From the NCBI RefSeq assembly GCF_016919725.2, contig NZ_JAJERH010000020.1, positions 1-57,829 of the forward strand: a stretch of DNA of 57,829 nt. Direction: 5' to 3'. The position numbers and the translations under genes were made by a program. The stretch's first letter is position 1. Each line of letters begins with the position of its first letter. This stretch comes from Virgibacillus sp. AGTR. GTDB taxonomy: Bacteria; Bacillota; Bacilli; Bacillales; Amphibacillaceae. Shown here one piece after another: positions 1 through 47,334 of the stretch. Under the pieces are notes generated by a model. The model did no database searches. It had not been told where the DNA came from and saw only the letters and a program-made list of their open reading frames with translations.

Positions 1-9
1 TTTGTTTGT

Positions 10-193
10 TAGCTCAAGTGGATAAATATGGGCGTGTTGAGCTACGTCCAACTCCAGTTCCCAGAAACGAGGCAACTTTACGAATCACCCCTAATCTAAG
101 TCATTATCGGCTCGCAAGCTCACCGTGCTTCCTTTATTTCCGTTGACTCGCTCCAGTCGCTACGTTTTAATCAGACGCTTACGCTTTTGTTCT
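10..193 (-). repeat. Dispersed repeat family R1, copy A
   Basis: Read on the minus strand, this stretch matches two other intergenic stretches in the window (28391-28586 and 46678-46836). Shared blocks are AAAAGCG.AAGCG, GAGTCAACGGA.ATAAAGG, GAGC.TGCGAGCCGATAATGA, a short TTAGG block and CTCAACACGCCC followed by TATTTATCCA. No ORF is conserved between copies, so it is a non-coding repeat. It overlaps the 3' end of holA: the last codons and stop of holA lie in the repeat's first bases. The copy probably continues beyond the left window edge. The family name is not known to me. Confidence 0.85.
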
Positions 194-1216
194 AGCAATT
201 TTTCCTTTCGTTAAATGATATAGAAGTATTTCAAATGCTAATTCTTTCTCCATAGATCCTTGTTTCATTGCTGCATCAGCATCTGCTAGTTGATCCATAA
301 TATATTCTAAAGTATCTATAGAAAATTGCTTTTCTCGTTGCATAGCTATTTTAATGACATAGGGATGCACCCCAAGTTGTTTTTGCATATGAGATTGACT
401 GTAGCCTTTTTGCTTTAATAACTTCACTCGAAAAATCGTACGAAATTGGAAGGCAAGTAAACCAATCAATGCAATGGGTTCTTCCTTCATTTTTTCTAAA
501 TCCTTATATATAGCAATTGCCTTATGTAAATCACGATTCATGACAGCATCCACTAATTTCAATGAAGAATTTGTAGTAGTATGCGATAAGAGCGCTTCAG
601 CAATTTCCCTTGTAATTTCACCATTCTCCCCAACATACATTGCTAATTTTTTCAATTCGCTTTCCAATAAGTGCAAATTCGTGGATAATTCCGATTCTAA
701 TAAATCATAAACATCATCACCAATTGTAACATGAAGCTGATCAGCCAATTGCGAAATCCACTTCTTTAGCTCATATTCCTTTATAGCGTTACATGCCACT
801 ACAGATGCTTGCTTTTTTAATTGTTTCGTTACTTTTTTCCGTTCGTCAATTTTTTCATATGGCGCAATCAAAACAAGTACGGAAAAATCAACTGGTGCAG
901 ACAGATAACGTTGTAGCGACTCAAGATCATGCTCAAACGAAAGTTTATCCGGTTTTGCTTTTAAGAAAACAGCGTTAGTAGCTATGATCAATTTACGCTC
1001 ACCAAATAAAGGGAATGTTTCCGTATCTGCAATAACATCTTGTATAGATGTTTCTTCTAAATCATAGCTCGATAAATTATCTTTATCATCATCAAGAATG
1101 GCTTCCATTAAACGTGTTTTAAGTGATTGTATAAAATAGGGCTCGTTTCCATATAGTAAAAATACTGAGGATATTTGATTTTTTTTTATTTGTTTTACCG
1201 CTTCCAAATAGGACAT
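179..1216 (-). CDS. holA: DNA polymerase III subunit delta
   Basis: HolA (YqeN type) is the clamp-loader wrench subunit that opens the beta sliding clamp. The 345-residue length, the N-terminal start SYLEAVKQIKKNQ, the FLLYGNEPYFI segment near residue 20 and the helical C-terminal collar region fit the family. As usual for delta, no Walker A motif is present. I chose the ATG at 1216 because GGAG lies about 9 bases upstream; the reading frame stays open to 1324 but the extra residues look unlike the family. It follows the comE operon as in Bacillus subtilis. The last codons, encoding about ARTKA and stop, fall in a dispersed repeat, so the extreme C-terminus may differ from relatives. Confidence 0.95.
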   Translation of the reverse strand: MSYLEAVKQIKKNQISSVFLLYGNEPYFIQSLKTRLMEAILDDDKDNLSSYDLEETSIQDVIADTETFPLFGERKLIIATNAVFLKAKPDKLSFEHDLESLQRYLSAPVDFSVLVLIAPYEKIDERKKVTKQLKKQASVVACNAIKEYELKKWISQLADQLHVTIGDDVYDLLESELSTNLHLLESELKKLAMYVGENGEITREIAEALLSHTTTNSSLKLVDAVMNRDLHKAIAIYKDLEKMKEEPIALIGLLAFQFRTIFRVKLLKQKGYSQSHMQKQLGVHPYVIKIAMQREKQFSIDTLEYIMDQLADADAAMKQGSMEKELAFEILLYHLTKGKIARTKA

Positions 1217-10481: not shown

Positions 10482-10650
10482 AAAGCGAAACTTCATTCTA
10501 ATGTTAAGAACAAAGGCAAAAACGTCACCTCCTGTGACAACGCCTTTGTGACCCACATCCTATAGAGCCGAGCTTATCGGACATTCACTAGCAGTTATCT
10601 CCATACCATGTGTGATTTATTATCAAGACGAAACTTTGTCGATGATAAAC
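10482..10650 (+). repeat. Degenerate copy of dispersed repeat R2
   Basis: Begins AAAGCGAAACTTCA, matching the AAAGTGAAACTTCA start of the copy at 46359, and contains CCTATAGAGCC and TTATCGGACATTCACTAGCAG, which match the middle of the copies at 31714 and 46359. The right half has diverged too far to align with certainty. The stretch carries no gene. It includes the nested hairpin at 10510-10549. It lies in the 560-base gap between yqeG and sda. Confidence 0.5.
10510..10549. other. Nested hairpin
   Basis: Outer arms ACAAAGGC and GCCTTTGT (8 bp, perfect) enclose an inner hairpin GTCAC/GTGAC. On the minus strand the inner loop reads AGGAG and is followed by GTTTTT, so it may be a weak minus-strand terminator, or simply a structural part of the repeat around it. 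Confidence 0.5.
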
Positions 10651-28390: not shown

Positions 28391-28586
28391 AGAATAAAAG
28401 CGCAAGCGCCCGATTAGAAACGTAGCGAACTGAAGCGAGTCAACGGAGATAAAGGAATCACGGTGTACATGCAAGCCGATGATAACTTAGATTAGGGCAA
28501 TTCGTGAAGTCGCCTCCGCTGGAACAGCTCAACACGCCCATTTTTATCCACAGGTTCAAATTTTACAATTACCTAGACAATAAAAA
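28391..28586 (+). repeat. Dispersed repeat family R1, copy B
   Basis: Starts AGAATAAAAGCGCAAGCG and runs through GAGTCAACGGAGATAAAGG, CTCAACACGCCC and TTTATCCA to CCTAGACAATAAAAA. Blocks match copies at 10-193 and 46678-46836. It lies inside the alaS 5' untranslated region (antisense in orientation), between the T-box terminator and the alaS start; its last bases run into the T tract of that terminator. Confidence 0.9.
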
Positions 28587-28820
28587 AATCCCTTCTCTGC
28601 ATTTGCAGGGACGAGATTTGATCGCGGTACCACCCTAATTATGAACTATTGTTCATCACTTTATCATTATAACGGTATGACACCGACGGGAATTAACCGT
28701 ACTCCAGCTTAGCTTTCCATGATTCTACCTTAGGATTTCTTTCAGCCAACGGAAATCCTTCTCTTAAAAGCGATTGTCATGTACTCAAAACTTTCAACGT
28801 ATTCTACATGTATAGTTGTT
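28585..28820 (-). promoter_or_regulatory. T-box riboswitch of alaS (Ala)
   Basis: Transcribed from 28820 down. Stem I has GAGTA on the 5' side and GAAA on the 3' side of the S-turn; the CATGA/TCATG pair closes it, and the specifier is GCT (28713-28711, Ala) followed by A. The 14-base T-box consensus AGGGTGGTACCGCG lies at 28636-28623; its variable base T pairs with discriminator A73 of tRNA-Ala. The terminator stem (AAATCTCG...AGGGATTT) ends in seven Ts. Uncharged tRNA-Ala would favour the antiterminator and alaS expression. Confidence 0.93.
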
Positions 28821-41324: not shown

Positions 41325-41327
41325 TAC

Positions 41328-41508
41328 ACAATCCCGATCGTGCCGTCCAGTATGAAGCTTTGATCCCGCTCACGGCAGGTGGGCGCTCTGTCCTATATTT
41401 ATTGTACTTCCTAATTCAAGGCACGTACGCAACATAGGAACTACTTCGAGCTCCCAAGTATACAGTTGTTCGGTCAAAACACTTTTCATGGACGCACACA
41501 TCAGGATT
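41328..41508 (-). ncRNA. bsrA: 6S RNA (6S-1/BsrA type)
   Basis: 6S RNA mimics an open promoter and traps SigmaA-RNA polymerase in stationary phase. Minus-strand reading starts ATCCTGATGTGTGC and ends GCACGATCGGGATTGT, whose ends pair to form the closing stem. The CCTGATGTG start, the GAGCGCCCACCTGC segment and the CGATC.GGA end match what I know of B. subtilis 6S-1. The site directly downstream of aspS is also where bsrA lies. Ends are estimated to within a few bases. It stops at the strong shared terminator. Confidence 0.85.
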
Positions 41509-41602
41509 GCGTTAAATACTATTATTCATCAAACCTTGCATAAGCTTTGATGTTATTTTAACACGTGTATTCTTCAAAAAGCAATAATGAGATAACTTTC
41601 AA

Positions 41603-44726: not shown

Positions 44727-45002
44727 ATAAAAACTCCCGACCCTTATAATAAAATAAGGGACGAGAGTTTACCCGCGTTGCCACCCTAGTTGATGTATTA
44801 CATACATCCGCTTTACACAGTTAACGCCTGCAAAACGTTTATATCTACTATTATTTCGATATAAAACCTCAGGAATGTCTTTCATTGGACCAACTGTAAA
44901 AATGCTTTCAGCCTAAGGCATTTTCTCTCTATCCAATTGGGTTTCAATTACTTTTTCCCTCATCGGCATATTTTTTAACGATCGAATTCGTAATCATGAA
45001 TG
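44727..45002 (-). promoter_or_regulatory. T-box riboswitch of hisS-aspS (specifier Asp)
   Basis: The S-turn sides are AAGTA (5') and GAAA (3') around an ATTG/CAAT stem, and the next triplet is GAC (44879-44877, Asp) followed by A. The T-box element AGGGTGGCAACGCGG lies at 44787-44773. Its variable base is C, which pairs with discriminator G73, as in tRNA-Asp; tRNA-His carries C73. The terminator stem (AAACTCTCGTCCCTTA with TAAGGGTCGGGAGTTT) ends in a T run at 44727. So Asp starvation should raise both synthetases. Confidence 0.9.
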
Positions 45003-45296: not shown

Positions 45297-46340
45297 ATGT
45301 ATTTACGTAAACTTCGTATAACGGTTTGTTCCATCATGATTTGGTTATTTCTAACTCCAATGGTTAGCTATGCTGACACAGCTATCATCAAAGGCGATAA
45401 TGTTAACATTCGAAATGGTCCGGGAACCAATTATCAAACGATTGGACAAGCCGGAACCAATGATACTTTTTCCATTATACAGCGACAAGGAGAATGGATT
45501 CACGTTCAATTAGAGAATGACACAGGCTGGATTATCGAGACATATTTAAGCATTATAGAGGATAATGAGCAGTCTACAGTTGATACACCCCCAGAATCCA
45601 TAACGATCCCCAATGACCATACACAAATTCGTAACGGACCTTCAACAGAGTATAAGATTGCATATTTTGCTGAAAAAGGTAGCTCCTTTCAAGTTATTTC
45701 TGTAGAAGGACAATGGTATGAAATACAGAACAAGAACATTCATGGATATGTATATAAACCACTTATTGACAAAGTAGAAGTACCCTCTTCAAGTACGTTC
45801 AAGAATAAAACGATTGTGATTGATGCTGGACACGGAGGTAGAGATGTTGGGGCTATTGGTTCATCAAATATCTTTGAGAAAGATATTGCTTTTTTAACAG
45901 CACAAGAATTAGCACAAGAGCTAACCATGCTTGGTTCTGATGTAAGAATAACAAGACCACGTGATATGTTCGTATCATTAGGTAGTAGGGTCAGCTTTAG
46001 CAATATGGTGAAAACAGATGTATTTATAAGCATTCACTATAATAGTGTGCCTGAATTGCCCGAGGTCACCGGAATTGAGTCATATTACTACCAGGAAGCA
46101 AATAATCAATTAGCAGCTTCTATCCAATCAGAGTTGATAAAAGCTACAGACTCGAAAGACCGAGGAACAACCCATGGTGACTTCTTAGTGCTTCGGCAGA
46201 ATTTACAAGCATCTGTTCTAGTAGAGCTTGGGTTTATTTCCAACCCTGAACAAGAATCCTCACTCCGAACAACTATATATCAAAAAGAGTTGGTATCAGG
46301 AATAGTTAATGGTCTCGCAAAATATTTTGCAAGTAAATAG
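45297..46340 (+). CDS. yrvJ: N-acetylmuramoyl-L-alanine amidase with SH3b domains (YrvJ-like)
   Basis: Secreted cell-wall hydrolase of 347 residues: signal peptide (about residues 1-26, cleavage after VSYA), two bacterial SH3 domains (about 28-85 and 97-152, each with the IRNGPGTNY or IRNGPSTEY pattern) and a C-terminal Amidase_3 domain (about 165-345) with zinc-site segments VIDAGHGGRDVGAIG, EKDIAFL, VFISIHYNS and VELGFISNPEQES. AAGGAGG precedes the ATG. B. subtilis YrvJ is longer with more SH3b units, so this is a short form. Confidence 0.9.
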   Translation: MYLRKLRITVCSIMIWLFLTPMVSYADTAIIKGDNVNIRNGPGTNYQTIGQAGTNDTFSIIQRQGEWIHVQLENDTGWIIETYLSIIEDNEQSTVDTPPESITIPNDHTQIRNGPSTEYKIAYFAEKGSSFQVISVEGQWYEIQNKNIHGYVYKPLIDKVEVPSSSTFKNKTIVIDAGHGGRDVGAIGSSNIFEKDIAFLTAQELAQELTMLGSDVRITRPRDMFVSLGSRVSFSNMVKTDVFISIHYNSVPELPEVTGIESYYYQEANNQLAASIQSELIKATDSKDRGTTHGDFLVLRQNLQASVLVELGFISNPEQESSLRTTIYQKELVSGIVNGLAKYFASK

Positions 46341-46358
46341 CTATCGCAATCAGCTAAC

Positions 46359-46532
46359 AAAGTGAAACTTCAATCCGTGGGGAGTTTGTTTATCCTTCAT
46401 GGATTGTTAGTACCACAAGGGTATGACCTAGAGTCCCTTAAGCCAACTAGACTGGTAGTCGATTTCCTACTTACTAAGATTGATTTCACTTTATTGCTTG
46501 AAGTGGGGAACTTACTGCCAGTTATATACACG
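46359..46532 (+). repeat. Dispersed repeat family R2, copy 3 (most complete)
   Basis: 174 bases starting AAAGTGAAACTTCAATCC, with GGATTGTTAGTACC, GGGTATGACCTAGAG, AGACTGGTAGTCGATTTCC, TTGATTTCACTTT, CTTGAAGTGGGGAACTTAC and CCAGTTATA. Possible stems: AATCC with GGATT near the start, and TTCCTACTT with AAGTGGGGAA near the end. Matches 31714-31858 well and 10482-10650 weakly. It starts 19 bases after the amidase stop codon. No conserved ORF. Confidence 0.8.
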
Positions 46533-46677
46533 ATAAAAACTACAAGTTTTTCCTTGACTGAACCTCTTGTAAGGATAACACAATAGCATGCCATAACGCT
46601 CTTTCGCATAGCTTAGACAGGCAGGTATAGGAGGACGCTTTTACATTCTTTGAGCTTGAACAAAGCTAATTTCCCAC

Positions 46678-46836
46678 AGAACAAAAGCGCAAGCGAGTCA
46701 ACGGAGATAAAGGTGAGCTTGCGAGCCGATAATGATTCATCGTAGGGCAGCCTAGTTTCTGGACACTGGACGTGGCTCAACACGCCCGTATTTATCCATA
46801 TGGGCTAAATCTTTTAATGTCCTAGACTATAAAAAT
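46678..46836 (+). repeat. Dispersed repeat family R1, copy C
   Basis: Starts AGAACAAAAGCGCAAGCG, lacks about 30 bases present in copies A and B after that block, then continues GAGTCAACGGAGATAAAGG, GAGCTTGCGAGCCGATAATGA, CTCAACACGCCC, TATTTATCCA and CCTAGACTATAAAAA. Its last A/T bases are the T tract of the dtd terminator read on the other strand. The 547-base gap between the amidase gene and dtd holds R2, R1 and this terminator, and no gene. Confidence 0.9.
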
Positions 46837-46863
46837 AACTGCCGAGAAAAAGTTTCTCGACAG
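46829..46863 (-). terminator. Terminator of dtd (end of the relA operon)
   Basis: On the minus strand CTGTCGAGAAA pairs with TTTCTCGGCAG (11 bp, one G.T), followed by TTATTTTTATA. The T tract is shared with the end of repeat R1 copy C. Confidence 0.85.
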
Positions 46864-46887
46864 CCTGAAATAATACAACCATTCCGA

Positions 46888-47334
46888 TTACTTATCTTTA
46901 CTGTCTATAATTAATGTAACTGGTCCAGAATTCGTGAATTGCACATCCATCATTTCTCCGAATTTGCCTGTCTCCACTTGAATACCTTCTTGTTGAATTA
47001 ATTCATTGAATTGATGGTAGAGTTTCGATGCCTCACTCGGTTTTGCTGCATTCATAAAATTTGGTCGTCTACCCTTTCGAGTATCGCCATATAAGGTGAA
47101 CTGAGAGATCGATAGTATACTTCCACCGACATCTTTTAAAGGTACATTCATTTTTTGATGATCATCTTCAAAAATGCGCAAATTTATAATTTTGTTTACT
47201 AAGTAAGCCGCATCATCTATCGTATCTCCATGCGTTATACCTAGTAATACGACAAAACCAAAGTCTATTTCTCCAATAATTTCATCGTTTACAGCTACAC
47301 TTGCTTGCTTTGCGCGTTGGATGACTGCTTTCAC
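46888..47334 (-). CDS. dtd: D-aminoacyl-tRNA deacylase
   Basis: Dtd removes D-amino acids and glycine wrongly attached to tRNA. 148 residues with the catalytic [19 protein letters not shown] and the C-terminal [10 protein letters not shown] (GP motif). The start is GTG at 47334, behind GGGGG. It follows relA by 45 bases as in many Firmicutes. Confidence 0.96.

Follow-up and report, generated by a model that had tools for sequence, protein, structure and literature searches.

The locus upstream of alaS raises the question of why a non-coding repeat of about 205 bp (R1) should stop exactly at the T tract of a transcription terminator, and whether the repeat was inserted there or brought the terminator with it. 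The stretch analyzed (the window) comprises 57,829 nucleotides of Virgibacillus sp. AGTR and holds three copies of R1. Copy B (28391..28581, plus strand, 3′ edge uncertain by about 3 nt) starts with AGAATAAAAG at 28391, carries TTATCCACA, which we take to be the DnaA-box consensus, at 28544..28552 (+), and ends with CCTAGAC at 28572-28578 (+). Read on the minus strand, the A run that follows (28582..28588) forms the T tract of a terminator, the target of copy B; its hairpin (28588..28618, −) is that of the T-box leader of alaS (28604..28806, −; Rfam RF00230; gene name from the initial annotation). Copy C (46678..46830, +), which is shorter than copy B and has an internal deletion near its 5′ end, also ends with CCTAGAC (46821-46827, +) and is followed by an A run (46831..46835) that is the minus-strand T tract of its target, the terminator with a hairpin 3′ of dtd (46836..46867, −; dtd ORF at 46888..47334, −, named in the same annotation). 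The initial annotation had described this junction, together with an identical orientation relative to the terminator in copies B and C, and both points were confirmed.

Copy A (1..195, −) is a reversed R1 truncated by the start of contig C113, which is base 1 of the window, with its absent 3′ end toward base 1. A plus-strand gene ending in a terminator had been predicted just left of base 1, and the assembly agrees with this, as rpsT of the same genome was found at the start of contig C200, reading outwards. In eight of eight relatives, holA and rpsT converged on a shared gap that held a terminator-like hairpin (hairpins judged by eye). These data fit copy A lying behind the rpsT terminator, with the rpsT-holA joint falling outside the assembly.

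Other features of the window were recorded alongside. At 46340-46670, a further repeat separates copy C from the gene that ends at 46340; words like CACTTTATTGCTTGAAGTG from this repeat recur in the 5′ flank of locus L028, the 5′ flank of L036 is also implicated, and such words resemble IS605 remnants, for example the one in L154. The remaining Rfam matches were Bacillaceae-1 RNA (10501-10566, +), 6S RNA (41327-41510, −) and a second T-box leader (44754-44972, −).

A profile search detected 23 R1 matches in 449 kb of the source genome (the window plus 391 kb from four contigs). Scaled to 4.7 Mb, this suggests roughly 200 copies, a density that may be somewhat high because the contigs were picked by length among those known to carry R1. 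When copy B was used as the query, 40 of 215 first-look candidates were scored, and these 40 were the matches listed. Forty-six distinct copies from this genome were available, of which 41 had a usable 3′ flank (two copies without a 3′ end and three at a sequence edge were left out of the 3′ test) and 40 a usable 5′ flank. On the terminator strand, a hairpin and T run adjoined the R1 3′ end in 32 of 41 copies at dG ≤ −8 and in 35 of 41 at dG ≤ −5, the T tract of the adjacent hairpin being the terminal A run of R1, and 6 of 41 ends had no hairpin of dG ≤ −5. The corresponding counts at the R1 5′ ends, which served as a control, were 1/40 and 2/40, and those at random non-coding T runs were 78/600 and 136/600, with a crude non-coding mask based on ORFs of 100 codons. 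The differences at dG ≤ −8 gave Fisher p-values of 5e-19 (32/41 vs 78/600) and 3e-13 (32/41 vs 1/40), and a slightly different scan of the same copies returned 31/41 at this threshold. The genome-wide excess next to terminators, which the initial annotation had proposed looking for, was thus present.

The gene on the terminator side pointed into the terminator at 34 of 36 loci in the source genome and at 67 of 88 in other genomes. R1 copies were not confined to convergent gaps, since 44 of 88 loci lay between tandem genes, upstream of the next gene; T-box terminators served as sites at 6 of 124 loci (motif scan). Among the copies examined, those inside long ORFs numbered 0 of 36 in the source genome and 1 of 88 in the others. 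The R1 3′ ends of L012, L022, L036 and L040 adjoined another repeat with GGGACAAAACACAACTTCTTTACTCAAAATACGAATAATCA or parts of it, and copies abutting this repeat were among those with weak hairpins.

On its top strand, R1 consists in order of GAACAAAAG, a single long stem that is imperfect and spans about 135 nt, a linker that varies, TTATCCACA, 5–7 nt and AAATTTTATAMTTTCYTA, after which a few variable bases lead to the A run of the target. We refer to TTATCCACA-N5-7-AAATTTTATAMTTTCYTA as the 3′ module. By inspection, the order on the terminator strand is host hairpin-TTTTTnn, then the element (module, variable body and far end), then the flank. The far end on this strand is a short hairpin-TTTTgttc in R1 and a complete terminator in a second repeat family, R2 (about 95 bp; loci L341-L358, in G005 and G002), which has only the module in common with R1; the far end of the element therefore resembles its target. 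No conserved hairpin was seen by eye near the module end, the short hairpin being at the far end, and neither terminal inverted repeats nor target duplications were seen at R1 ends or at clean empty sites. Arrays were also observed, in which R1 stood directly behind R2 and behind other R1 copies.

Whether the terminator is target or cargo was examined at sites filled in one relative and empty in another. The relatives G001 and G002 were 94.7% identical over 225 kb (long alignments), and the compared stretches contained 31 R1 groups (15 + 16). At eight candidate sites among these groups, one genome carried the element and the other was nearly empty, with clean junctions at five (G001:C25 near 69092, 224110 and 231469; G002:C15 near 1070734 and 1202486) and complex ones at three. 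The five clean empty sites already held a hairpin and T tract, two of the target hairpins being the terminator end of an R2 element, and no bases had been duplicated or removed beyond one or two ambiguous positions. A clean R2 empty site was likewise found at a host terminator, without duplication (G001:C25:113270-113361). The possibility that the A run is part of R1 was ruled out by the R1 and R2 empty sites.

Behind dtd, in relatives without R1, a hairpin was present in eight of eight (by eye), with T-rich sequence after it in at least six, and the module was found in none of the eight within the 330 nt scanned. In the holA-rpsT gap, at least three of eight relatives showed no element, G001 carried an R1-type element on the opposite side of the same hairpin, and G002 carried an R2-like element. 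The hairpin sequences beside R1 3′ ends varied from copy to copy, and the R1 ends were constant apart from a few junction bases. Of the two ideas offered in the initial annotation, insertion next to terminator T tracts is supported, as empty sites and relatives hold the terminators first, but mobilization together with the T tracts is not, as the hairpins differ by copy and pre-exist in the empty sites and at dtd and rpsT/holA in relatives. The same annotation had counted T tracts in relatives lacking R1, combined with variable R1 ends, as evidence against targeting; the T tracts do pre-exist, which is what targeting demands, but the R1 ends are constant. These results show that R1 inserts without target duplication about 7–9 nt past the GC foot of a terminator hairpin that was already in place, and that its 3′ end points toward the T tract of the target terminator. 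R1 is very probably a targeted non-autonomous element.

The long stem of R1 covaried. The fold alignment comprised 21 sequences from 20 genomes (two from Calidifontibacillus); 13 further loci had been offered to this set, eight of which passed the length filter, and mostly gapped columns were dropped. The consensus fold had an energy of −87.2 kcal/mol, compared with −29.9 (SD 4.3, minimum −41.8) in 60 column-shuffled alignments. At least two Watson-Crick types occurred in 28 of 44 stem pairs and standard pairs in 846 of 916 cells. These are not independent events, as one alignment served both for predicting the fold and for counting the pairs, and its sequences are related. Wobble counts in the 21-sequence set (49 G.T and 16 A.C) favour the complement of the terminator strand as the one that folds. 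A strand inference from a set dominated by the source genome was dropped, three of the wobble pairs occurring mostly in that lineage, and the wider set was used. No Rfam 15 family matched over threshold at R1 in the window or at the loci of five relatives.

Of 87 copies that were collected by their R1 body and retained a recognizable 3′ end, 54 carried TTATCCACA with at most one mismatch (source genome 31/41, G001 7/12, G002 8/18, others 8/16), whereas permuted 9-mers averaged fewer than 0.3 copies per group, with a maximum of 6/41. Titration of DnaA by R1 was considered and appears weak: 449 kb held 12 boxes, compared with 5.4 (SD 3.1) for permuted 9-mers, and five of them were inside R1.

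R1 matches were found in 23 of 41 genomes of the genus, family and order, including the source genome. One sequence, NZ_QWLJ01, is titled Roseburia sp. 1XD42-34 yet placed in the genus of the source genome, and its title looks wrong. A TTATCCACA-N2-16-module pattern matched at least 117 stretches of GTDB species genomes, covering many Bacilli as well as Clostridia such as Clostridium ganghwense and Marinisporobacter. Among 119 distinct places listed, a set selected for carrying the TTATCCACA motif, the spacer was 6 nt in 87, 5 nt in 26 and 7 nt in 6, with 2–16 allowed. An adjacent terminator hairpin reached dG ≤ −5 at 99 and dG ≤ −8 at 95 of the 117 listed places that had sufficient flanking sequence, and 18 of these 117 3′ ends in other genomes had no hairpin of dG ≤ −5. 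Marinisporobacter and Neobacillus have the module in common, but not the R1 body. The targeting rule thus reaches beyond R1, to other bodies with the module, to other genera and to Clostridia. Among 398 genomes spread evenly over the phylum, the exact pattern (spacer 4–8) occurred in the source genome and one other, and a reversed control pattern had no match in the same 398; this rarity indicates that the module is lineage-bound, not a chance AT-rich word.

Copy B had no match in the plasmid collection, and a 50-nt consensus of the R1 3′ end gave only partial matches to plasmids and phages, covering at most 64% of the query. A viral scan returned 24 matches, of which L167 and L176 had R1-type context and the rest looked like chance by eye. 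No description of these repeats was found in the titles and abstracts of the limited library searched, and R1 is filed as a gene-free mobile repeat with an unusual structure-based target.

The orientation of the insertions was compared with the direction of replication, assuming an origin near base 1 and a terminus at the midpoint. The first half of G002:C15 had 31 exact module matches on the minus strand and 3 on the plus strand, and the second half had 1 and 14, respectively, so that the terminator strand was the presumed lagging-strand template in 45 of 49 (p = 4e-5 vs 138 of 206 co-directional ORFs in one G002 stretch, in which strong terminator-like hairpins numbered 28 plus and 30 minus). 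For the best-scored R1 copies listed, the lagging-template counts were 17/17 in G002:C15, 21/21 in G005 and 11/15 in G020, and for module matches they were 14/18 in G005 (exact) and 6/14 in G020 (at most one mismatch). By these counts, G002 has a clear bias and G005 also has one, whereas for G020 it is unproven. In G002, and in the best-scoring copies of G005, the terminator strand was mostly the presumed lagging-strand template, which G020 does not show.

No autonomous partner or enzyme of R1 was found among the loci examined. Matches to PF01797 (Y1) occurred in 25 of 26 element-bearing genomes and were of several kinds across hosts, those of the source genome being fragments or frames with stops. 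None of the Y1 loci inspected contained an element with R1-like ends, and none of the reverse-transcriptase loci inspected had R1 ends as its own. In the sequence covered, four pairs of R1 5′ and 3′ halves more than 90 nt apart were tried as candidates for an autonomous R1 form and rejected: three were separated by 108–175 nt, and the fourth (3.5 kb) consisted of two separate copies. A unit shared by L154 and L160, with a Y1 fragment about 1.4 kb from R1, was also rejected, as the two loci align only over R1 and an IS remnant. At L162:1180-1512 (G011), a long R1 variant interrupts an IS200-type Y1 gene; its insertion point is a T run with no obvious terminator hairpin, and it is an exception to the targeting rule, as are the 6/41 and 18/117 3′ ends noted above.

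The explanation that we prefer as a whole, including the single-strand DNA proposal, places R1 in a class of small non-autonomous terminator-homing elements, and we consider it probable on balance. For the route itself, mobilization as single-stranded DNA by a putative enzyme is favoured, with a confidence a little short of even. The element would move as single-stranded DNA exposed at replication forks, and an enzyme supplied in trans would cut behind a hairpin and T run, once at the element's far end and once in the target, much as the Y1 transposases of IS200/IS605 elements cut left and right sites that resemble each other; terminators on the lagging template would serve as landing sites. 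This route is favoured because the target is not duplicated, the far end looks like the target and G002 shows the strand rule. For the explanation as a whole there count also the adjacency to terminators, the clean empty sites of R1 and R2, the Y1 matches in 25 of 26 hosts, the lack of inverted ends, the terminator-like far ends and the arrays. Counting against the explanation as a whole are the lack of a Y1 element with R1-like ends among the loci inspected, the differing kinds of Y1 match across hosts and their fragmentary state in the source genome, the variable target bases where IS200/IS605 elements use short fixed words, the lack of a hairpin at the module end (by eye), the wobble counts, the orientation in G020 and of the exact module matches in G005, the L162 variant, the three complex sites of eight and the 3′ ends without hairpins.

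Some other enzyme or process may move R1, a reading that we regard as rather improbable. A different enzyme or a host process would then insert R1 either at the 3′ ends of transcripts or at hairpins that are cut at the fork, and the DnaA-box-like motif may link this to replication. Intrinsic termination is expected about where the R1 insertion point lies, which agrees with this reading, as do the failure to find a partner and the TTATCCACA motif, spaced at 5–7 nt in Bacilli and Clostridia when 2–16 was allowed; however, the argument is mostly one of exclusion, many of the 87 copies have a degenerate motif, and the 117 places were selected for it.

It is unlikely, in our estimate, that R1 is a retroelement moved in trans by the machinery of group IIC introns, with the intron protein, which already recognizes a hairpin and T tract on the lagging template, carrying R1 RNA to the terminator. 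An RNA route nevertheless has in its favour the strong covariation of the stem with its G.T excess, which suggests a folded RNA, and a geometry like that of the introns. Among 15 reverse-transcriptase matches in G002, we inspected 10 intron loci that start with GTGCG, which we take to be of the group IIC class. The hairpin foot lay 7–9 nt before the intron in nine of the 10, L116 having no hairpin by the same method. Of the 117 R1-type places listed, 89 had a hairpin that reached dG ≤ −8 and stood on a G/C foot, at a median distance of 8 nt from the foot (IQR 7–9, with 67 of 89 at 7–9), the R1 boundary being set from the empty sites at 5 nt after CYTA with an uncertainty of about 2 nt and distances of 3–16 allowed. 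At L121 (G002:C15:764552-768169), a group II intron stood directly between a terminator and an R1 copy. A passage in PMC8919778, citing Robart 2007, likewise places C-type introns right after rho-independent terminators, with a lagging-strand template. However, PF00078 (reverse transcriptase) had no match in 8 of 26 element-bearing genomes (1/9 + 7/17), which speaks against dependence on a resident reverse transcriptase, although one may have been present in the past and completeness is known for few of the 17. G001 is among these eight genomes and holds R1 copies absent from G002. Moreover, the ends of R1 differ from intron ends, no match to the ribozyme core exceeded the Rfam threshold, and the strand favoured by the wobble counts is opposite to the intron sense strand.

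Insertion of R1 at any T run, with selection then retaining just the copies behind terminators, is very unlikely. The harmlessness of gene 3′ ends and the near absence of long-ORF copies among those examined speak for it, but a hairpin of dG ≤ −8 stood at only 78 of 600 non-coding T runs, the tandem-gene (44/88) and T-box (6/124) loci do not agree with it, and neither does the fixed distance of 7–9 nt. That the A run and hairpin belong to R1, which would bring terminators along as R2 does with its own far end, can be dismissed almost entirely, as it is refuted for the R1 3′ end by hairpins that differ among copies and pre-exist in empty sites and relatives.

Terminators offer abundant and safe landing sites. 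A gene-free element that finds them with group IIC geometry would show either that several mobility systems can recognize a hairpin and T run or that the machinery of introns also moves passengers, and R2-like elements, whose far end is a terminator, would alter the ends and leaders of transcripts across many genomes. More tentatively than the route itself, we suggest that R1, R2 and their Clostridial kin may form one terminator-homing class, characterized by the module and a target-mimicking far end, whose mechanism would be neither intron retrohoming nor a described form of transposition and may be tied to replication through DnaA. With the empty sites, the arrays and the conserved module at hand, the mechanism is open to direct tests.

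Among known systems, MITEs of DDE transposons are, like R1, short, gene-free and multi-copy and presumably moved in trans, but R1 has neither terminal inverted repeats nor target duplications. REP/REPIN elements with their RAYT proteins resemble R1 in their many short, gene-free intergenic copies, in their strong stems and in presumably being moved in trans; they differ in that the R1 stem is about 135 nt and that the RAYT-like genes of three of these hosts had other palindromes beside them (by eye). These palindromes, GGGGTCTGACCCC and GTGCCTGTCAC-type words beside the RAYT-like genes of L334, L335 and L338, are candidate REP elements. An R1-like 3′ end with a terminator also follows a RAYT-like gene at L334:2034-2160 (Salirhabdus euzebyi), which may be a coincidence, R1 being so common.

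IS200/IS605 elements target short fixed words, not hairpins. Together with PATEs, their gene-free derivatives, they share with R1 the lack of inverted ends and of target duplication, the target-like far end and the lagging-template bias (for R1, in G002), and a passage in PMC6006769 states that Y1 elements use the lagging strand. The target of R1 differs in being a structure, as no fixed short target word was found before the junction, where the bases varied among the copies of the source genome and the empty sites. Group IIC introns come closest in geometry: like R1, they insert just behind the hairpin and T tract of a terminator, and both the distance and the strand agree. R1 differs from them in having no reverse-transcriptase gene, GTGCG start or Rfam-recognized ribozyme. 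R1-type elements and group IIC introns have no recognizable sequence in common, yet they share the insertion spot.
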